A DNA stretch of 64,000 nucleotides from an uncultured Fibrobacter sp. Its GTDB lineage: Bacteria > Fibrobacterota > Fibrobacteria > Fibrobacterales > Fibrobacteraceae. The stretch spans positions 26,615 through 90,614 of the forward strand of contig CAMKNA010000006.1 in the NCBI GenBank assembly GCA_946414075.1, read 5' to 3'. The notes beneath the pieces are model-generated. The model saw nothing but the letters and a program-made list of their open reading frames with translations. It ran no database searches and had not been told where the DNA came from. Both the position numbers and the translations under genes were made by a program. Below, piece by piece: positions 2,698 to 58,542 of this stretch (positions within the stretch are counted from its first letter, which is position 1; each line of letters begins with the position of its first letter).

Positions 2698-5600
2698 ATG
2701 AAGTTAAATGCGGTTTTCTTTGCATTTGTTTTGGGGCTTTTGTCTTTGGCCCAGGCAGCGGACACCTTGGAGGTGTTCGTATTGCTGGTGGATTTTAAGC
2801 AGGAAAAGCCCGACAATTCGCTGACGACGGGCGATGGCAGGTTTAATTCCGATACCAAGGTGAACTACAAGCTGGACCCTTCGGGGGTTCGCGCCAACCC
2901 CAACTATTGGCTTAGGCATTTCGAGTTTGTGAACGCTTTTTACCAGGCGGCTAGCGGAGGCAAGCTGGCGGTTCGGGCTCGTGTTTTCCCGGAAAACTCT
3001 CTTTACACCTTGGATAAGCCCATCATGGGTTACAATAGGACGGCCAAGAGCAAGGGTGAAAAGACAGCGGAATATGACGAGGACCGCAGCAGGCTTTACC
3101 TGAACTTCATTTACGATGCGGTGGCCAAGGCCCATTCTTCTAGCGAGTCGCCTTTCAAGGTTCCCCTTTCAAAGAACCCGAATGTGAAACGCTCCTACAT
3201 GATTGCCCACGCAGGGGCGAGCCGCCTGCTGGATGGCGGGAGCATGGGCACCCGTAATGCGGATACGCCGGGTGACTTTTTGGACATTTATGTGGATAAG
3301 GACGCTTGGATGTACCTGATGCCCGATTCGGCGAAGGTGAAGAGCGTGCAACCCGTGATGGGCGTGGGCGAGAACGGCGATACGGTGACGACGGCCCTTG
3401 CTCTGGAAGGTGCAACGGATACCCTGCGCTCTATCATGGTGGTGTCGGAGACGGCATCCCAGGATGGGCTGAATTGGGGTATCAACGGAATCATCACGAA
3501 CCAGGTGGGGCGCGAGCTTGGGCTCCCCAACACCTACGATGTGGTGAAGGGCATTAGCCGCCTGGGTTATTTTGACCTGATGGATTTTGCGGGTTACAAT
3601 GCAGGTAATGGATTTTTCCCTGCGTTGCCCGCAGCTTGGGACAGGCTCTATATGGGTTGGGGCACGGTAAAGGAAGTTCGTCCTACGGCGGGTCACCCGG
3701 TGACGGTGGAGATCGCTGCTGCGGGTAGCGGTCTCGGTACTGAAATCGTGAAAGTCCCCCTGAACGGTAGCGAATACCTGTTGATCGAGAACCGTCAGCG
3801 CAGCTGGAACAAGGATGGTACGGTAGAAGTGGCCCATGTTCGTGATGCCGGTGCCCAGACAGAAACGCAAAAGATTACAGTGCCGGCGGATAGCATTTCC
3901 AAGCTTTTTGAGGATAGCGTTTGTGTGAAGGACAAGTGCAAAGCCAATGCGAAGCAGCTGAGCGGATTTATCTTGGCCCCCAGTTCCTTTGATGCGGGCC
4001 TGCCAGCCAGTGGCATTGCGGTTTGGAAGGTGAACGACTGGTATCTTCGTGAAACGCTGAAGTACGGTATCGCCAACTTCTGGGGCGGCGATACGCTGCG
4101 TGACCACCAGTTCGGAATTTCGCTTGTAGAGTCCGACGGAATCCTCAGCATAGGCAAGTCCTTCAAGAATGCCTTGGGCGAAGATACCTATGATTACGGC
4201 TCCGGAACAGATTTGTTGCCACACTTGCGCATTCCCGCAAAGGATTCCAAGCAGAAGTTCGATACGGTAAAGACCATTGCCCCTACGGGATATGCCAACA
4301 CCATGACCACCCAGGGTGGCTACACGGGAATCAAGATTACGGTGAATGTTCCCAAGGGTGCTCGCAAGGAAAAAACATCCAACGCCTTCATGGGCGACAG
4401 TGTGCTGAACTTTGCAGCCCCCATTATCAGCGTGACCATCAGCATTGATGACGGCAGTATCGAAGGGAGCAAGTTCCCCCGCGAGATTGGCCTAAATTCG
4501 GCGGTGCGCGGCGCGGTGTTCGTAGATGACCCGGAACACGATGGGCAAAAGATTATCGTGGTGGGCGCTGAAGATGGAACCCTGCAGGCCTTCAATGCCC
4601 TGGGCGACACGCTGTTCGTGGCGGATACGGTGATAACCAAGAAGTCCCTGACCCGCGACAGTGCGAAGGTCGAAGTGCCGTTGTACCGCGTGGGGCCGAG
4701 CAATGGAGCGCTGGTGGGCATGGCCAGCGATGGCAAGGATGTTTACAGCCTGCACAGGAACAAGCTGGTAAAGACCCGCTTTGTAGGCGGCATCCCAATA
4801 CAAGATGAAATTGCGGTAGATTCCGCTACGGCAGGGCCTGTCGTTCACGATGGAAAAATCTGGATTGCCAGCCGCGAAGGCGTGGTGACCTACGATGCAG
4901 TCAAGTTTGAAAAGAAGTCGACAATAAACGTTCATGAGTCCAATTCGACAGCGTCAAAAATCTATACCGATATGGCTTATTGCAAGCAAGATGCCGGCAA
5001 GGGTATCGAGAGTGTACAGGTGTCTAGCGATGGCGAGCTCTTTACGACACAGGGGTGGATTAAGCTGAACGGAAAATCTGGTGAGACATTCCGCATTGCC
5101 TGTACCGATATGGATCGGGATGACAAGGTGGATATTATCGCTGTGGGCAGTCGCGGGACCGTTGTGGCTGTGAATTATGATGATGCCAAAAAGGGCCTGG
5201 TGACCCGCTGGACAAAAAGCTACAAGCGTGGCGCCGCAGGCACAAGCGGCCTGAAGGACGAGACTTCGGGTATTGCCATCGGCGATATCAACGGAGACAA
5301 GTATCCTGAAATCGTCTTCTTGGGCGACAATCTGGTTTATGCCCTGGACCGTTCGGGCTTGCCTATCGCTGGGTTCCCCGTAAAGATTAGCCGCGGGACC
5401 CCGATTTATGGATTCTTTAGCGACCCGGTTCTTGTGGATGTAAATGGCGATGCTGACCCTGAAATTCTAGTGCCCAGCAACGATGGCCTGGTTTATGCCT
5501 ACACCGGCAAGGGTAAGGCCCTGACTGAAAAAGACGGGTTCCCGCTGGCGGCCGGCAGCTTTGAGTACGTGGAGTCCACAAAGCAGCTGAAGCCCATGAG

Positions 5601-14442: not shown

Positions 14443-15417
14443 TCACCCCTTCGTGCTTTCCCTCACTTTCTCAATGACTTCTTCCGGTGTCACAAAATCC
14501 AGCACGCTGAAAGCCGTCATCTCGTTACCCATGTCCTTGAAACTTGCGCCAAAATGATATACAGTGTCATCGACCAGAAGAAAACGGTCGTGAATCGTGC
14601 GCATGGTCTTCAGTTCTAAATTTGGGTACTGCTTTTTGTGCAATTCTGCTGCAGCTTGGAATTCGGGTGTAATTCTCGGGGAGTAGATTGTTGCCGAGAC
14701 ACCTTTCGCCCGCATGGCCGCGAATTTTAGCACCTCGACGGTGGCATACGGGTCGATGAATACTACGGATTTTTTGGCGGTTTTCACAAGATCCGAAATC
14801 AGTATAAACCCGTCAAACCGCGTTCCAGTCGCAAGAATTCCACCCGTTGGAGTTTGTGCCGCATTCACGAAAAAGTCTATACGTTGTTCGACTGCGGAAA
14901 GCCGAGTATCAACATTTGCGAGTTTGACGCCTTGGCCTTCGATGAGTTGCCGCTGTTCGTGCAGACGGTCCGCAATCTGCAAATCGGTCGATAGCTTTCG
15001 CTGGTTTATGGCGTAACCCTTGAGCATGAATTCCTTGAGAACTCCCAATGCCCACTGCCGAAAACGCGTTCCCGCAATAGACTTGACTCGATATCCGACG
15101 GATATGATAATGTCCAGATTATACCATAGGACCTTACGAGAAACCTCTCTTTTCCCTTCTTTTTGAACTGTCAAGTATTCCTTGACAGTTCGATTTTGCA
15201 TGAGTTCCCCTTCTTTGAAAATGTTTGAGATGTGCAGACTCACGTTTTGCTTTGACGCATGAAACAGTTCCGCCATCTGTGCCTGTGTAAGCCATACGGT
15301 CTCGTTTTCTACACGAACTTCTAACCGCACTTCGCCTTCCGGCTGGTAAAGCACGATTTCGCCCCTGTTTTCGTTCCCGACCTGGTCGGGAATCTCAATT
15401 TTATCCTTTTTGCTCAT
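14443..15417 (-). CDS. RhuM-family protein with PLD-like C-terminal domain
   Basis: VRVENETVWLTQAQMAELFHASKQNVSLHISNIFKEGELMQNRTVKEYLTVQKEG...DIIISVGYRVKSIAGTRFRQWALGVLKEFMLKGYAIN (RhuM) then VVFIDPYATVEVL...IHDRFLLVDDTVYHFGASFKDMGNE; GGAGGT SD before ATG. Confidence 0.88.
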   Translation of the reverse strand: MSKKDKIEIPDQVGNENRGEIVLYQPEGEVRLEVRVENETVWLTQAQMAELFHASKQNVSLHISNIFKEGELMQNRTVKEYLTVQKEGKREVSRKVLWYNLDIIISVGYRVKSIAGTRFRQWALGVLKEFMLKGYAINQRKLSTDLQIADRLHEQRQLIEGQGVKLANVDTRLSAVEQRIDFFVNAAQTPTGGILATGTRFDGFILISDLVKTAKKSVVFIDPYATVEVLKFAAMRAKGVSATIYSPRITPEFQAAAELHKKQYPNLELKTMRTIHDRFLLVDDTVYHFGASFKDMGNEMTAFSVLDFVTPEEVIEKVRESTKG

Positions 15418-15431
15418 TTTACCTCCATAAA

Positions 15432-15495
15432 AAAAGTCGTATTTCCATAGCCCGCAGCCGATTTTAGCTGCTATGGGATATGGAAACACGACTTT
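15432..15495 (-). promoter_or_regulatory. Large imperfect inverted repeat with T-tract in the 5' region of the RhuM gene
   Basis: Arms AAAGTCGTaTTTCCATAgCCCGCAGC / GCTGCTATGGGATATGGAAACACGACTTT; minus-strand product ends in T7 directly before GGAGGT. Confidence 0.6.
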
Positions 15496-15663
15496 CGCGG
15501 GGTAATATACAAAACAGAACCAGGAAAGGGCAAATTTATTACAAATTGCGGGGAACCGCCCCCCCTTAGTTTGTTTATGAAATTTTACAATGGGGGGGGG
15601 TATGGACTTTGGCAGGGGCACTACCTATATTTCACAAGATAAACTATAGACGGGGATGTTTTT

Positions 15664-17568
15664 ATGAAGAAGTCTTTCCAGCGTGTCATTGCGACCCTGA
15701 ACTTGTTTCAGGGGAAGCAATCTCTAACCATCTGTTTATTTGCGGCAATCTTCGCCCTTTCCGCCTGCGGAAGCGATTCCTCTAGTTCTCCCTACGAAAC
15801 ATCTGCCAAGGATGCCAACGAACCCTTTTCTGGAGATGTTTCGGGAATTGCGCAGGTGGGGCCCTTTGTGGAAGGCAGCAACATTGTCATTCAAGGGCTA
15901 GATTCAACCTTCATTATGGTCTTTGAGGAATTCACCGGTGAGGTTGCCGACAATGATGGGGCATATTCCATAAAGGAAGTCTCCTCGGAAACCAACTATG
16001 GTTATGCAAAGGTAACTGGTAAATTTTACAATATCGTTACAGGCTCCATTTCTTCATCGGAATCATCGCTAAAGGGCGTCATAAACCTAAAGCAAAAAAA
16101 CAGTGCGAATATCAATGTTGCAACATCCTTGGTTTATAGCCGTATCGAAGAGTTGGTGGATTATGGAGCGTCTATCTATGATGCCAAAAAGCAGGCCGAA
16201 CAGGAACTTTTCAAGACCTTTGGCTTTGAAGGAAACTTTGACGAATTGAACAAACTGAACGTTTACTCCGATACCGATGGGGGAGCGGCACTGCTGGCTA
16301 TGACGATCCTTATGCTGAATGAATCGGAAACTGGTTTTGATTATCGCCTACAGATGTTCGCTCTTGACTTTAAAAAGGATGGAGAATGGAACGATTTGGA
16401 TAATCGTGCGGATGCAGCAGACTTTGCAGTGGACCAGGATTTCGTACAAGTGCGAAAGAATATCCAGGAAAGTGGTGGCGTTGAAAAAATCCCAGACTTT
16501 GAATCCTACATAAACTCCTTTGTTGCCGCAGAGTACAAACTGGGCGAGTGTTCTGACAACTTCGATAAGAAGATTGTTGCTGCCCGAAATACTTACAGTA
16601 AAAATGATGGGGTCTACTTTATTTGCGATAATGGAATGTGGCGAAAGGCGACAGCCTTGGAGCAGAACACCCATGGCCTCAAGTGCGACGCTGACGGAAG
16701 TGTTTTAGCGGGTGCTGTCGATACGAGTTCTTTTTATGTATGCGAATCCGGAGCATTTAGGGAAGCCTCCTCATCTGAAATAGAACTTAAAAAGGGGTGT
16801 GGCTCATATAATGAAGGGGCGTCCGTAACACAACCCGTCAGTAAGTTTTGGGTATTGTCTTATACGTGCAGGGACAAAGAATGGCTGGCTAACGGGGTGT
16901 TGCAAAATATGGACGCCTATGAAATCTTGACAGACTCAAGGGACGGGAAAAAATACCCGATTACAACCATTGGCGACCAGACCTGGATGGCAAAAAATTT
17001 GGAATATGACTGTCAACCGAATAGTGCGTATGATGATAGTACCTACGGTTGCTACTATTCCTGGGAAAAAGCCGTTGTTGACACAACGAATTTAACCGAA
17101 CCTGTCCGTGGGGTATGTCCTGTAGGATGGCATATTCCAAGTGTTGCAGAATTTAAAAAACTTTTTGAGACGGTCGGGGCGGATTCGCTACACTCAAGCA
17201 TGTTGTTCGCTCCACCGGCATGGGATACTGAAGGGACGATTAATGACGTTGGCTATTTCCGCAAGAGTGGCAAGACCGATGTCGAGGTAATGCAAGCCAA
17301 CGGATTTAAAGATGAGTATGGATTTTCCCTTTTACCGGGGGGTGGCGATGATTTCGTGGACAGAAATCGAAATAGATATAAGGCTGTGCTTTTGACTTCT
17401 TTAAAAGATGATATAACAGATTATATTTGTACTGGCGGGAATTGTAGACCTTTAAGACGCGGTATATTTGTGGAATTCCAGATGGGTCTGGCAAAAAAAA
17501 ATTCTCCAATGAAATTTAAATCAGGACTTGGTGGCCTCACATACAATCTCCGTTGCTTGAAAGATTGA
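15664..17568 (+). CDS. FISUMP domain lipoprotein
   Basis: Lipobox ALSACGSDSSSS; TDSRDGKKYPITTIGDQTWMAKNLEYDC...CPVGWHIPSVAEFKKLF...YGFSLLPGG. Confidence 0.92.
   Translation: MKKSFQRVIATLNLFQGKQSLTICLFAAIFALSACGSDSSSSPYETSAKDANEPFSGDVSGIAQVGPFVEGSNIVIQGLDSTFIMVFEEFTGEVADNDGAYSIKEVSSETNYGYAKVTGKFYNIVTGSISSSESSLKGVINLKQKNSANINVATSLVYSRIEELVDYGASIYDAKKQAEQELFKTFGFEGNFDELNKLNVYSDTDGGAALLAMTILMLNESETGFDYRLQMFALDFKKDGEWNDLDNRADAADFAVDQDFVQVRKNIQESGGVEKIPDFESYINSFVAAEYKLGECSDNFDKKIVAARNTYSKNDGVYFICDNGMWRKATALEQNTHGLKCDADGSVLAGAVDTSSFYVCESGAFREASSSEIELKKGCGSYNEGASVTQPVSKFWVLSYTCRDKEWLANGVLQNMDAYEILTDSRDGKKYPITTIGDQTWMAKNLEYDCQPNSAYDDSTYGCYYSWEKAVVDTTNLTEPVRGVCPVGWHIPSVAEFKKLFETVGADSLHSSMLFAPPAWDTEGTINDVGYFRKSGKTDVEVMQANGFKDEYGFSLLPGGGDDFVDRNRNRYKAVLLTSLKDDITDYICTGGNCRPLRRGIFVEFQMGLAKKNSPMKFKSGLGGLTYNLRCLKD
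15684..15728. repeat. Dispersed palindromic-type repeat inside the signal-peptide coding region
   Basis: GTGTCATTGCGACCCTGAACTTGTTTCAGGGGAAGCAATCTC encodes VIATLNLFQGKQS. Confidence 0.55.
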
Positions 17569-17600
17569 CTAAGGGGTAAAATTTTGTAATGGGTGTTTTT

Positions 17601-18761
17601 ATGAAAAAATTTATTTTACTGTTGGCAATCTTTGCCCTTTCCGCTTGTGACGATTCTTCGTCGGCGGGGGGTGATGGCGGTAGCGGCGGGAATCGTGGTG
17701 GAATTCCTGACACCGTCGAGACATTCATGGAACTGTCGGACTATGACTGCGGCAAGAGTCAGAAGTGCGTTGCCACCTACCTGACGGAATACCATGACAT
17801 GGCTGTGTGCGATGGTAACAACGGCTGGGTCATCGGGACTCTCATCGAGAAGATGGACTGCGATTTCTCTTCATCGAGTGACAAGTCGAGCGACAGCAAG
17901 GGCAATCCTTCTTCGGCAGGAACATCGACCAAGTCAAGCAATTCCAATTCGTCTGGAAATGGCACAAAGTCAAGCAACAGTTCTGCGAGCAAGGTTGAAT
18001 CTTCTTCAAGTTCAGACGAAGTTCCGAAAAGTTACGCCGAAGCAAAGGTCATGCCGTCGGGAACATACGATTGCACGAAGTATAAGTGTGTTACGACAGA
18101 ATACCTGAACCAGGAATTCCTTGAAACGGGTAAGTATGGCGAAATTCTCGATGAACGCGATGGTCAGGTTTATAAGACTGCTCAGATTGGCGAGCAGATA
18201 TGGATGGCACAGAATTTGAACTATGCCGACAGTATTAAAACGCCTAGTTTGTTGGAACGTAATTGGTGCTATGAATACAATGAAGAAAAATGTGCGTATG
18301 GCGGTCGGCTTTACACCTGGGCCGCGGCGATTGACTCAATCGCACTTTACGACAGCGGCAATGGAGTGGACTGTGGCAGAAAAAAGACCTGCTCTCTACC
18401 TTCAAAAGTTCAGGGCTTATGTCCGATGGGGTGGCATCTGCCTGATACAACCGAATGGAATGTTTTGATTGATGAAGTTGGCGGAACAGATGATGCGGGT
18501 AAGGCTCTCAAATCTCAGACGGGATGGACTAATAATCGTAACGGTACGGACGCATACGGTTTTGCGGCGTTGCCTGTGGGCTCGAGACCAACCGATGGTT
18601 TTGTCAATGCTGGCGATTATACAGACTTTTGGAGTTCTTCTGAAATTGATGGCTATTATGTATATGGCGTGAATATGTATTATGGACGTCCGAGTGCACT
18701 CATGGTTAATCGCAGTAAGGTCATTGCAGTGAGCGTCCGTTGCATCAAGGACTCTGAATAA
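17601..18761 (+). CDS. FISUMP domain lipoprotein (tandem paralog)
   Basis: MKKFILLLAIFALSACDDSSSAGG...LDERDGQVYKTAQIGEQIWMAQNLNY...GLCPMGWHLPDTTEWNVL...DFWSSSEIDGYYVYGVNMYY...VRCIKDSE; a start at 17589 is also possible. Confidence 0.92.
   Translation: MKKFILLLAIFALSACDDSSSAGGDGGSGGNRGGIPDTVETFMELSDYDCGKSQKCVATYLTEYHDMAVCDGNNGWVIGTLIEKMDCDFSSSSDKSSDSKGNPSSAGTSTKSSNSNSSGNGTKSSNSSASKVESSSSSDEVPKSYAEAKVMPSGTYDCTKYKCVTTEYLNQEFLETGKYGEILDERDGQVYKTAQIGEQIWMAQNLNYADSIKTPSLLERNWCYEYNEEKCAYGGRLYTWAAAIDSIALYDSGNGVDCGRKKTCSLPSKVQGLCPMGWHLPDTTEWNVLIDEVGGTDDAGKALKSQTGWTNNRNGTDAYGFAALPVGSRPTDGFVNAGDYTDFWSSSEIDGYYVYGVNMYYGRPSALMVNRSKVIAVSVRCIKDSE
17640..17940 (+). repeat. Near-identical direct repeat, copy 1 (5' module of FISUMP lipoprotein)
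   Basis: About 300 bp nearly identical to 18845-19145. Confidence 0.85.
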
Positions 18762-18779
18762 ATTCCAAAAGGTTTCGCT

Positions 18780-19880
18780 ATGAAAAATACATTCTCTAGA
18801 AAGTTTACGGTCTGTGCCCTTGCTGGGGTGCTCGGTTTCGCCCTTTCCGCCTGCGACGATTCTTCGTCAGCGGGGGGTAATAATGGTAGTGGCGGGAACC
18901 GTGGTGGAATTCCCGACACCGTCGAGACATTCATGGAACTGTCGGATTACGACTGCGGCAAGAGTCAGAAGTGCGTTGCCACCTACCTGACGGAATACCA
19001 TGACATGGCTGTGTGCGATGGTAACAACGGCTGGGTCATCGGGACTCTCATCGAGAAGATGGACTGCGACTTCTCTTCATCGAGTGTCAACTCCAGCGAC
19101 AGCAAGGGCAATCCTTCTTCGGCAGGAACATCGACCAAGTCCAGCAACTCTAGTTCTTCGAGAGTCACCTCGAGCGATGTTGAGGGGTCTAGCAAAACCG
19201 CCTGGGATTACTTGAATCCGGACATTAACTATGGCGAGTTTACCGATGAACGTGATGGACAGATTTACAAGACGGTGACCATCGCCCCCGCGGGCACTGG
19301 CTATTCCGAGGTGTGGATGGCCGAGAATCTGAACTTTGAGACGGAAAACAGCTGGTGTGGTGGTGGAATCGGAACTACAGAAGGCGATTGTTCTGTTTAC
19401 GGTCGTCTTTATACCTGGGCTGCTGCAGTGGGCAGGGCGGAGGACGAGTGTGGTATTGATCATGCATGCAACCTTGGTGAGGGAGATATTCGTGGTGCAT
19501 GCCCCAAGGGCTGGCATTTGCCCAGTCAAAGCGAATGGGATGCCCTGATTGTGGCCGTTGACGGTTCCATTACGGAATATACGTCTTCAAATACGGCGGG
19601 TTCCAAGCTCAAGTCCGCGGCTCGCTGCTGGTCGTCGTACAGCGGCATCACCATCGAGGATGCCTTCGGGTTCTCGGCGCTTCCTGCCGGCTTCAGGAAC
19701 GACGGCATTGGGAATTACAACTCCAAGGGCTATGGCACGGTCTTCTGGAGTTCTACTGAGGAAACCATCTACTACGCGTACGCCATGGAGTTGTATTACC
19801 GCAACGACGGTGCGGACCTGTTCAACGACGGCAGCAAGAACAGAGGGTTCTCCGTCCGTTGCGTCAAGGACTCAGAATAG
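18780..19880 (+). CDS. FISUMP domain lipoprotein (tandem paralog)
   Basis: ALSACDDSSSAGGNNGSGGNRGGIPDTVETFMELSDYDCGKSQKC...TDERDGQIYKTVTIAPAGTGYSEVWMAENLNF...GACPKGWHLPSQSEWDAL...VFWSSTEETIYYAYAMELYY. Confidence 0.92.
   Translation: MKNTFSRKFTVCALAGVLGFALSACDDSSSAGGNNGSGGNRGGIPDTVETFMELSDYDCGKSQKCVATYLTEYHDMAVCDGNNGWVIGTLIEKMDCDFSSSSVNSSDSKGNPSSAGTSTKSSNSSSSRVTSSDVEGSSKTAWDYLNPDINYGEFTDERDGQIYKTVTIAPAGTGYSEVWMAENLNFETENSWCGGGIGTTEGDCSVYGRLYTWAAAVGRAEDECGIDHACNLGEGDIRGACPKGWHLPSQSEWDALIVAVDGSITEYTSSNTAGSKLKSAARCWSSYSGITIEDAFGFSALPAGFRNDGIGNYNSKGYGTVFWSSTEETIYYAYAMELYYRNDGADLFNDGSKNRGFSVRCVKDSE
18845..19145 (+). repeat. Near-identical direct repeat, copy 2
   Basis: See copy 1 at 17640-17940. 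Confidence 0.85.
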
Positions 19881-19935
19881 CCCGCCGATAAACAATCATT
19901 CCACATTCCACACTACACACTTCACACTCGCGTCT

Positions 19936-20047
19936 GCGTTAGGGGACGTCGCACCGCCACGCGGTGGCGAGACGCGCAAGCGGCTCGATGAGCCGAGCGC
20001 GCTCGGCGAGCAGCACCCGACCCGTCCTGTGGACGGGGAACGCCCTT
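19936..20047 (+). repeat. Dispersed palindromic intergenic repeat (GCGTTAGGG...CCCGACCCG...CGGGGAACGCCC), copy 1
   Basis: Shares GCGTTAGGG and CCCGACCCGnnnnnnnnnCGGGGAACGCCC with the reverse complement of 62850-62945; multiple internal palindromes. Confidence 0.6.
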
Positions 20048-20101
20048 TGACGGCAGGCTCATTTTTTGCTAAATTTGCGTCCCTATTTGAGGGGATGCAC
20101 T

Positions 20102-21997
20102 ATGATGGATTTGACTGTATTTTTTGATGGAATGTCCAAGCCTATGTTGCGTGATGTTCATGCCTTGGCTTATGGCAAGAAGGGCTTGCTGAACAACGCC
20201 TTGATACAGTCTGAAGTTCTGTCTTTTTATTCTAGTTTGGAACGACTGCAGTCCATCCGCCAGAAATTGGAACCCTGGCAGCGCCATTGCCTGGACTTGA
20301 TCTACCTGAGCGGTTCCCGCGGACTTTCTTACAACGAGCTTAGACTTTCTGTTCCTGCGGCGAAGAGCGCCGAACTCCAGAAGTTTCTGATTTCCCTTTG
20401 CCGTCAGTTTTTGGTGTGGCGTTCATCTGTATCTAATACCGTCGTCTATTACGGTTTTCGCAATTTCGAGGAATGTATCAGGTTCGTTCCCGAACCGGTG
20501 GACCCTTCCAAGGGGACTCATGTGGGCTACAGTACATTGCTGGACTGGCATGTCTGTAAGGTACTTGGGCTTGCCCAGCGTGGTGAACTGAAGATTAACG
20601 GCAACGGGAGTCTTCATCGTCGGGGCAGGCAGCTTTGCCTGGATTCCTTTACATCGGCTTCCAAGCTGTGGATGAATGCTGCCGAGACGGAACTGGTTTT
20701 GATCTTTAGCTTCTTGACCCAGAACCGCTGGCTGGAACTGGTGGGTACGAACCTGTATCCGTCGGCCAAGGCGCTGGAGTTCCTGAAGAAAAACAGCTTC
20801 CGCCTGCATCAGGATATTCTGTCTTGGTGGCTTTGTGCCCGGTTCCAGAAAGACCGCAGGCTCTGCAAGAGCATCTTCAAGAACCTCTCGACGGTCACTT
20901 CCATCCAGGATGCCGCTCAGATTTTCTGGGTGCTGGACCCCACCTTCCGTATACTGGATAAGAGCAAGCATTTGGGCTGGGACAACTTGCCAAGACCCCT
21001 GAAGGAAGCCTGGCTTTTGGGCCTGGTGGACTTCACGCTTTCCGACCAGAAGGGTGCCCGCAAGGTGGAGCAGGTGGCCTTGAATGCAAACGGTCTGGAG
21101 TGGTTGGAGTCCTCTGTGATGCCAATACCCGAAGCATCCGTTTCTGTGCTTCCCAATTTCGACATTGTGGCTTCTGTGGGAACATCGCCGAGAATCCTGT
21201 TCGTGCTTTCGACCCTTGCCACATCCAAGAACGACGAGACCTTCCTTTGCTTCAACCTGGACAAGGAGACATATCTTTCCGGCTTGCGGAGCGGTTTTCC
21301 CGAATCGGAAATCGAACACTTCCGCAATTGCGTCAAGACGCCCAGTAACGTGTCTGCGACGCTTGACGAATGGAACGGCTCTTTTTATGGGGCTCGCATC
21401 CGTACGGTTCGCCTGTTGAAGATTGACGATGGGAAGGCGCTGCACGAGCTTTCCTCCTTCCCGCAGTTCATGGAAAATGTGGAAGAATTTATTCCCGGTT
21501 ACGGGTTCTTGATAAAGCCGGAACAGGAAGCGAATGTATTCAGCATTCTGGAAAGCTATGGGTTCTGCCCCAATGCCTCTCGCGCGTCGGAAAATGCAGA
21601 AAAGGCTCCTGTGGAGGAATGGCGCAAGGAGTTTTCCATTCCCCGCTACGAGATGGGCGCTCCAGACTACGAGCTTCGCAGCGGCCAGGACGAATCGTCC
21701 CTACAGTCTTCGTTGGATGCCACCAAGTATGGAAGCCTTTACCGCAAGCTTGACACCTTCGACCTGGTGAAGGTCCTGCGCTATGCGAAGATGACGGGAA
21801 CCATGCTAGGCGCCCAGGTAAAGGACCCTGCCAAGCGTACCGACAGGATGAGAGAAATCACTTTTTATGTCCATTCCCTGCACCTGTCCAAGCCGCCCTT
21901 CAATGCGGAAATCCAGGAAGTGGGCAGCGAGACGGATCATTCCTTGCTTCTCTCCTTTATCCAAGAAGTCAAGGTTATGCAGAAAAAGTCGGTTTAG
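20102..21997 (+). CDS. Helicase-associated (XPB N-term/Helicase_C_3-like) domain protein without helicase motor
   Basis: MPIPEASVSVLPNFDIVASVGTSPRILFVLSTLATSKNDETFLCFNLDKETYLSGLRSGFPESEIEHFRNCVKTPSNVSATLDEWNGSFYGARIRTVRLLKID; no Walker motifs; start after GAGGGG SD-like sequence. Confidence 0.65.
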   Translation: MMDLTVFFDGMSKPMLRDVHALAYGKKGLLNNALIQSEVLSFYSSLERLQSIRQKLEPWQRHCLDLIYLSGSRGLSYNELRLSVPAAKSAELQKFLISLCRQFLVWRSSVSNTVVYYGFRNFEECIRFVPEPVDPSKGTHVGYSTLLDWHVCKVLGLAQRGELKINGNGSLHRRGRQLCLDSFTSASKLWMNAAETELVLIFSFLTQNRWLELVGTNLYPSAKALEFLKKNSFRLHQDILSWWLCARFQKDRRLCKSIFKNLSTVTSIQDAAQIFWVLDPTFRILDKSKHLGWDNLPRPLKEAWLLGLVDFTLSDQKGARKVEQVALNANGLEWLESSVMPIPEASVSVLPNFDIVASVGTSPRILFVLSTLATSKNDETFLCFNLDKETYLSGLRSGFPESEIEHFRNCVKTPSNVSATLDEWNGSFYGARIRTVRLLKIDDGKALHELSSFPQFMENVEEFIPGYGFLIKPEQEANVFSILESYGFCPNASRASENAEKAPVEEWRKEFSIPRYEMGAPDYELRSGQDESSLQSSLDATKYGSLYRKLDTFDLVKVLRYAKMTGTMLGAQVKDPAKRTDRMREITFYVHSLHLSKPPFNAEIQEVGSETDHSLLLSFIQEVKVMQKKSV

Positions 21998-22003
21998 GGG
22001 CGA

Positions 22004-57606: not shown

Positions 57607-58542
57607 ATGAGTGCATTGAAAACATGGATTCTGTTTGTTGGTGTATCGTTTCTGCTCGCCGCCTGTTCTGACGACAGTAGCCCCACGGCGAAAGTCAATG
57701 ATGATATCGGTGAAGATATTGTTGAGGATAGCGGAAGTTCGGGGGCTTCTGGCAAGAAGGGGTCTTCTGGGTCGCAAAAGCCGACTTCTGCAGAAACAAT
57801 TGTCATTAACAACGGCAAGGATACTATCTATGTGGCTGATGCGGAAGGCAGCCTTTATTACAGTGATGGTGTTTTTTGCTGGACGGAAGGATGCGAGGCT
57901 AACTTCGTAAGCAGTTCTTCCAAGGGTGCCTCTGGCAAATCTTCCAGTTCCAAGGGCAAGTCCAGTTCTTCGACAAAGGTCTCCAGCTCGTCTGTCAAGT
58001 CTTCGTCTTCGGCGGTTCCTCCTACCGTGACGGACAAGGAAATGACTGATAACCGCGACAAGAACAAGTACAAGATTGAGAAGATTGGCGATGTCACTTG
58101 GATGACCGAGAATCTCCGTTTCAAGCCGTCGTCGGGAACATACTGCGATGCGACGGTGGAGGTGACCAAGCCTGGTCCTGGCGAAGAGACGCAGACGGTG
58201 AATGTTTGCGAACAGTTTGGAATGTTCTACATATCGCAATCAGCTGGTAGTTCCGCTTGCCCCCCTGGATGGCGTCTCCCCACGCAAGGCGAGGCTGATG
58301 CGGCTTGGGATGCTAAAATGAGTGGCGAACACCCAGATGACAAATGGTGGACCTTAGGTGGACGATTTGATCTGGAAGAGAAGAAGTATGGCAAGAATGG
58401 ATCTGAAGGCCGTCTTTGGGTTCAGACTTCCGGTGGGAAAAACAGTATGCAGATCATGTACTTTGGAAGTTGGTCCAAGGAATATTTGAGCGCAGATGCG
58501 GGCAAGAGGGCGTTTAACGTACGCTGCGTGACTACGAACTAG
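57607..58542 (+). CDS. FISUMP domain lipoprotein
   Basis: LLAACSDDSSPTAK; TDNRDKNKYKIEKIGDVTWMTENLRF...GSSACPPGWRLPTQGEADAAW...AFNVRCV. Confidence 0.9.
   Translation: MSALKTWILFVGVSFLLAACSDDSSPTAKVNDDIGEDIVEDSGSSGASGKKGSSGSQKPTSAETIVINNGKDTIYVADAEGSLYYSDGVFCWTEGCEANFVSSSSKGASGKSSSSKGKSSSSTKVSSSSVKSSSSAVPPTVTDKEMTDNRDKNKYKIEKIGDVTWMTENLRFKPSSGTYCDATVEVTKPGPGEETQTVNVCEQFGMFYISQSAGSSACPPGWRLPTQGEADAAWDAKMSGEHPDDKWWTLGGRFDLEEKKYGKNGSEGRLWVQTSGGKNSMQIMYFGSWSKEYLSADAGKRAFNVRCVTTN

Follow-up and report, generated by a model that had tools for sequence, protein, structure and literature searches.

The question raised by this locus is how two adjacent lipoprotein genes (A and B) came to carry near-identical fronts and dissimilar C-terminal FISUMP domains. 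The window (the whole 64,000-nucleotide stretch of DNA analyzed) is part of a Fibrobacter genome (G000) of 2.31 Mb in 65 contigs, 82% complete and with 41 FISUMP matches; relatives of G000 identified by name are Fibrobacter MAGs. A and B were located behind a third FISUMP lipoprotein gene (F0), the three genes being consecutive and on the same strand, with a dinG-like gene and a RhuM-family gene upstream of the array and a conserved gene downstream. The following features were delimited (window coordinates):

15664-17568, + strand: F0, FISUMP lipoprotein gene (634 aa) upstream of the pair, lacking M1; identifies the corresponding slot in other species
17589-18761, + strand: gene A, lipoprotein of 390 aa in which an M1 module and a Ser-rich linker precede a type 0 FISUMP domain
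17631-17940, + strand: repeat copy in A (signal peptide end, M1 module, linker start); 17745-17863 identical to B
17706-17867, + strand: M1 module core in A, 54 aa, 4 Cys; predicted compact domain (pLDDT 92)
18150-18752, + strand: FISUMP domain of A; near-identical cassette in G006, G007, G056 and G058
18762-18779, + strand: 18-nt spacer between A and B; same spacing and similar sequence between array genes of other species
18780-19880, + strand: gene B, lipoprotein of 366 aa in which an M1 module and a Ser-rich linker precede a type 1 FISUMP domain
18837-19146, + strand: repeat copy in B; 18951-19069 identical to A
18912-19073, + strand: M1 module core in B
19245-19871, + strand: FISUMP domain of B; predicted fold (mean pLDDT 95)
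19668-19871, + strand: hypervariable C-terminal segment of B, corresponding in position to the variable region of diversity-generating retroelements (DGRs) with FISUMP targets
20066-21997, + strand: downstream flanking gene, syntenic and vertically diverged in G006, G049 and G056 (pS 0.53-0.54)

Family membership (FISUMP/Fib_succ_major; PF09603, TIGR02145) was assigned by HMM. A and B scored 183.7 and 166.5 bits with TIGR02145 (cut-off 41.65) and 97.8 and 92.1 with PF09603 (cut-off 33.9), and the F0 domain likewise scored far above the curated cut-offs, placing all three domains in the same family. F0 nucleotide matches of 90-99% were present in L079, L084, L093, L094 and L096. Lipobox signal peptides (...FALSAC at residues 15-20 of A and 20-25 of B) were called by direct reading of the sequence. 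A repeat finder paired 17631-17930 with 18837-19136 at 94% identity and alignment extended the pair to ~17940/19146, to within about 10 bp of the copies described in an earlier note on this DNA (about 310 bp, E = 5e-136, not chance; 119 bp within it identical). In translation, the shared piece comprises the last part of the signal peptide, a 54-residue four-Cys domain (M1) and the first part of a Ser-rich linker. In 50-column windows, A/B identity was 0.30-0.56 across the signal peptide, 0.84-1.00 across the module and 0.00-0.74 (mostly <0.6) across the linker and FISUMP domain. Both repeat edges are sharp because windowed identity collapses on either side of the module, and the constant/variable architecture that the earlier note had described was borne out (identity 30-55% on both sides of the ~310-bp module), as was the strong difference between the downstream FISUMP domains (45% amino-acid identity), though short conserved blocks recur in them. 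No third copy of the repeat was found when the G000 genome was searched. A further FISUMP lipoprotein gene, lacking M1, lies outside the array at window positions 57607-58542.

The explanation that we favor, at a probability of roughly 0.8, is that A and B belong to a tandem array whose outer-surface FISUMP lipoproteins are assembled from exchangeable DNA segments, with recombination within the array and across Fibrobacter species. The exchangeable parts would be the signal peptide, the small four-Cys M1 module, the Ser-rich linker and the FISUMP cassettes, held in a genus-wide pool and assorted by homologous recombination and inter-species transfer, which would diversify surface binding domains. 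Array genes would recombine with one another and with DNA of other Fibrobacter species by ordinary homologous recombination, probably of the RecA type, with crossovers in the near-identical M1 module and linker, in the 5' spacer and signal peptide, and in the conserved FISUMP blocks. A constant membrane-proximal front would thereby be coupled to changing C-terminal FISUMP domains.

The exchange of cassettes was evident from comparison between species. FISUMP cassettes showed pS of 0.007-0.08 between species where dxs pS was 0.4-0.65, and the same cassettes were found behind different fronts. Type 1 follows M1 in G000, G026 and G049, M2 in G006 and a further front in G045; M1 and M2 both precede type 4, M2 and M3 both precede type 5, and M1 and M3 both precede type 8. 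The M1 modules in front of type 0 are joined to several different signal peptides. The last 790 bp of B were recovered at 95.8% identity in G045, a genome of about 20 contigs that is 100% complete (dxs pS 0.62 to G000), behind an unrelated 5' end without the module. Array genes were tiled by exact tracts of 50-400 bp from different species. Orphan FISUMP 3' cassettes, also proposed as a search target in the earlier note, did not turn up in the source genome: when A, B and F0 were compared by blastn with 20 regions of that genome, spanning most of the remaining FISUMP places, only weak paralogues were returned (longest 431 bp at 68%), and donors are therefore not visible in the G000 assembly, which is incomplete. 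FISUMP ORFs with neither signal peptide nor front module were seen at L092:612-1328, L092:5638-6225 and L083:11533-12312; these are possibly broken genes or silent cassettes.

A natural recombinant was found in G049, where a single gene, not two, stands between F0 and the downstream flank. Its upstream DNA and signal peptide match A; from the module end on, it matches B through the linker, FISUMP domain and stop codon and into the 3' flank. The A-to-B switch falls inside the near-identical module, and the chromosomal site is syntenic. Such a gene is the product expected of a crossover between the A and B modules, and the difference from the two genes of G000 would correspond to a gene lost in G049 or gained in G000. 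The slot after F0 was occupied elsewhere by type 4 (G015, G051), types 0 and 3 (G058) or types 0 and 1 (G006). Spacing between array genes was exactly 18 nt in 32/48 same-strand neighbor pairs, and this uniform spacer indicates that whole genes are interchangeable units as well. Segmental recombination was thus seen both in segments with different nearest relatives and in the recombinant itself. The array genes are mosaics with parts shared across species, and these gut bacteria seem to remix their surface binding proteins by recombination, not by mutation alone.

A second variable zone was located in the last ~70-75 FISUMP codons. Within one FISUMP type the first 120-145 codons were often near-identical even at synonymous sites and the last ~75 varied; B and its G049 counterpart, for example, differed by 1 synonymous and 2 nonsynonymous changes in 137 codons and then by 3.5 and 24.5 in 75. 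Between B and G045 or G049, this zone contained many NNC-codon swaps and almost no synonymous change, as would be left by a DGR. On that account, an error-prone reverse transcriptase working from an adenine-rich template rewrites the FISUMP C-termini, now or until recently, in addition to the exchange of cassettes. Fib_succ_major is already listed as a DGR target (PMC4159848, PMC8934634), and true DGRs with FISUMP targets were found in other Fibrobacter. A complete one (L154:61-3424, in G011) comprises a FISUMP gene with its variable region (VR, 946-1143), a reverse transcriptase (RT, 1213-2379), an accessory ORF and a template repeat (TR, 3227-3424), with 27/27 TR/VR mismatches at TR adenines. 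Further Fibrobacter DGR loci were L131, L133-L135, L137, L139, L141-L143, L146 and L147, where TR/VR mismatches are mostly adenine-only and not all targets are FISUMP; template repeats were present in eight other Fibrobacter genomes. B-type variable codons occupied 15/28 mutable and 5/37 non-mutable columns of the L154 TR (Fisher p = 6.5e-4), an enrichment that is not exclusive given the five at non-mutable sites, and island-wide entropy was higher at TR-mutable columns (3.09 vs 1.31 bits, p = 2e-9).

Rewriting by a DGR in this array was nevertheless judged unlikely. No RVT_1 was found in G000 (82% complete) or in the M1 carriers G015, G029, G039, G040 and G058 (96-100% complete), and no TR-like match or template repeat was found in G000; C-terminal differences between G040 and G058 include many synonymous changes and look like block recombination; and the shared 5' module and whole-domain swaps would be left unexplained. 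A DGR as sole driver was rejected, with neither RT nor TR found in G000. Because the variable codons match TR-mutable columns but no RT or TR was found, the C-terminal diversity was taken to stem either from DGR activity elsewhere, passed on by inheritance, or from selection acting on the same ligand-facing residues, and both origins are compatible with a binding domain. The match to DGR-variable positions supports the suggestion in the earlier note that surface binding domains may be diversified here. FISUMP domains probably bind ligands (plant polymers, glycans or neighboring cells), and their diversity may be under selection. Tentatively, diversification across the genus could have two layers, with retroelements in some lineages making hypervariable FISUMP C-termini, and lineages without a retroelement storing, trading and recombining the finished variants as cassettes behind constant fronts; this remains a speculative extension, somewhat doubtful as a whole.

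The confident model of the B FISUMP domain (pLDDT 95) was compared with known structures. The best neighbors were 4eps, formylglycine-generating enzymes (FGE) and snake C-type lectins, all weak (E >= 0.03, TM <= 0.37), which agrees with, and does not prove, a C-type lectin fold. A DUF1566-type variable protein has been compared with TvpA via structure 4eps (PMC4159848). DGR targets with a C-type lectin fold (Mtd, TvpA, Fib_succ_major targets) resemble the A/B family as lipoproteins with a C-terminal hypervariable domain on a conserved scaffold and in the coincidence of A/B-family variable columns with TR-mutable columns of Fibrobacter DGRs; they differ in that G000 yielded neither RT nor template repeat and in that diversity here includes whole-cassette exchange.

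The 5' module was examined for whether its history is confined to this genome. M1 is one clade within a larger Fibrobacter family of Cys-rich modules, which are found in proteins lacking FISUMP as well; M1 was predicted as a small confident domain, and a structure search with the model returned no meaningful structural match. In G000 it was found in A and B only. The search for the same 5' module elsewhere, which the earlier note had called for, recovered M1 at 93-100% amino-acid identity in 16/79 genomes of other Fibrobacter species; every copy lay in a FISUMP lipoprotein gene, and a genome often had several. Module pS was 0.22 between species and 0.21 within genomes (pN about 0.01); flanking genes of the three nearest syntenic relatives (G006, G049, G056) had pS of 0.49-0.63, and dxs pS between species reached 0.71. 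Module and species distances were uncorrelated (Mantel r = -0.13, p = 0.85), and module divergence was below that of dxs in 111/111 distant genome pairs. In the four-gamete test 130/210 site pairs of the module failed, a count that homoplasy at biased codons may inflate and that is supporting, not decisive.

The simplest rival account holds that a recent tandem duplication or intragenomic gene conversion copied the 5' end from A to B or from B to A, leaving the FISUMP domains as old paralogues. A and B are adjacent, their 94% identity is confined to about 310 bp with 119 bp identical, and intragenomic conversion does happen elsewhere, the two G026 modules being identical. However, the A module lies 1 nt from the G058 copy and the B module 3 nt from copies in G015, G029, G048 and G058, whereas A and B differ from each other at 4 synonymous positions in the 162-nt core; among modules of multi-copy genomes the nearest copy was in another species for 18/20 and in the same genome for 2/20; and the FISUMP cassettes are themselves common to several species. 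With the nearest copies of both modules in other species, A and B were each taken to derive from the shared pool. Intragenomic conversion as sole driver was rejected, and the duplication or conversion account as a whole is improbable. Of the overall reading in the earlier note, module shuffling therefore stands, on the evidence of the same cassettes behind different 5' modules, the B cassette without the module in G045 and the A/B recombinant in G049, whereas recent gene conversion between A and B explains the data less well. Gradual divergence along both genes with no sharing of modules, the opposite pattern, was not what was seen: the edges are sharp, and module and cassettes are common to several species.

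It was also considered that metagenome assemblers joined FISUMP genes of different strains at shared k-mers. The M1 carriers identified by name are all MAGs, and some joins could therefore be assembly chimeras at the 119-bp identical tract, a length close to common k-mer sizes. Against such an artefact, the same cassettes were recovered in genomes that come from separate studies and host sources (horse faeces, sheep rumen, sheep abomasum), including the highly complete G045; the A and B modules are distinguishable by their synonymous differences; and the ORFs are in frame with a fixed 18-nt spacer. An artefact was accordingly given as low a probability as duplication or conversion. If codon preference is strong, pS in the 162-nt module could be depressed and homoplasy could arise there, but such preference cannot account for cassettes of 600 bp whose pS is near 0.01. 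A history without exchange, in which extreme purifying selection acts on both the protein and the codons of the module, would account for the 93-100% protein identity and low pN; it is highly improbable, since synonymous sites are shared outside the module too (cassette pS about 0.01), module distances do not follow species distances, four-gamete violations are many, and cassette sharing and the G049 recombinant contradict it.

Mosaic surface families diversified by recombination include the Borrelia lipoprotein loci, the Treponema tpr genes and Neisseria pilE. The Fibrobacter arrays resemble these in their tandem paralogues, constant and variable segments and segmental exchange; unlike them, every array gene is whole and encodes a signal peptide of its own, as opposed to one expression site fed by silent cassettes, and exchange crosses species. 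In the bacteria that are the main fibre degraders of the rumen, FISUMP ranks with the largest gene families. It has been amplified to 54 copies in F. succinogenes S85, other Fibrobacteres have as many as 119, and the family is listed under cellulose-binding accessory proteins (PMC4704652). No description of a cross-species mosaic assortment of front modules and FISUMP domains was found in the literature searched, and a literature search on the words 'Fibrobacter' and 'FISUMP' found no paper mentioning both. If the shared pool is real, species would differ in binding repertoire beyond what species trees and average gene content reveal. The link to a DGR-target domain supplies a concrete hypothesis, variable ligand binding, and points to the protein region to examine.

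Possible vehicles of transfer were sought in viral contigs and in phage and plasmid records; no close match to the module or FISUMP domains was found in those searched. No integrase or recombinase was found among 20 island-flanking ORFs tested. An invertible shufflon or other site-specific recombination was rejected, as the array genes all point in one direction and these flanking ORFs included no recombinase; inverted repeats within 16000-22000 were weak only (72-81%). In signal peptides and linkers (window positions 15664-15780 and the linkers of array genes), the peptide strings VIATLNLFQGKQSLTI, VTPSDVEGSS and VILSGDSREESSDSRSND resemble translated dispersed nucleotide repeats, which may point to repeat insertion into reading frames. 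Genes beside FISUMP islands were of the RhuM-family, ATPase_2 and YhcG types. RhuM-family genes adjoin islands at window positions 14443-15621, L086:13781-14785, L087:3108-5024 and L096:3751-5136; these islands occupy different chromosomal sites in several species, and the RhuM-family gene is possibly a marker of an accessory hotspot.
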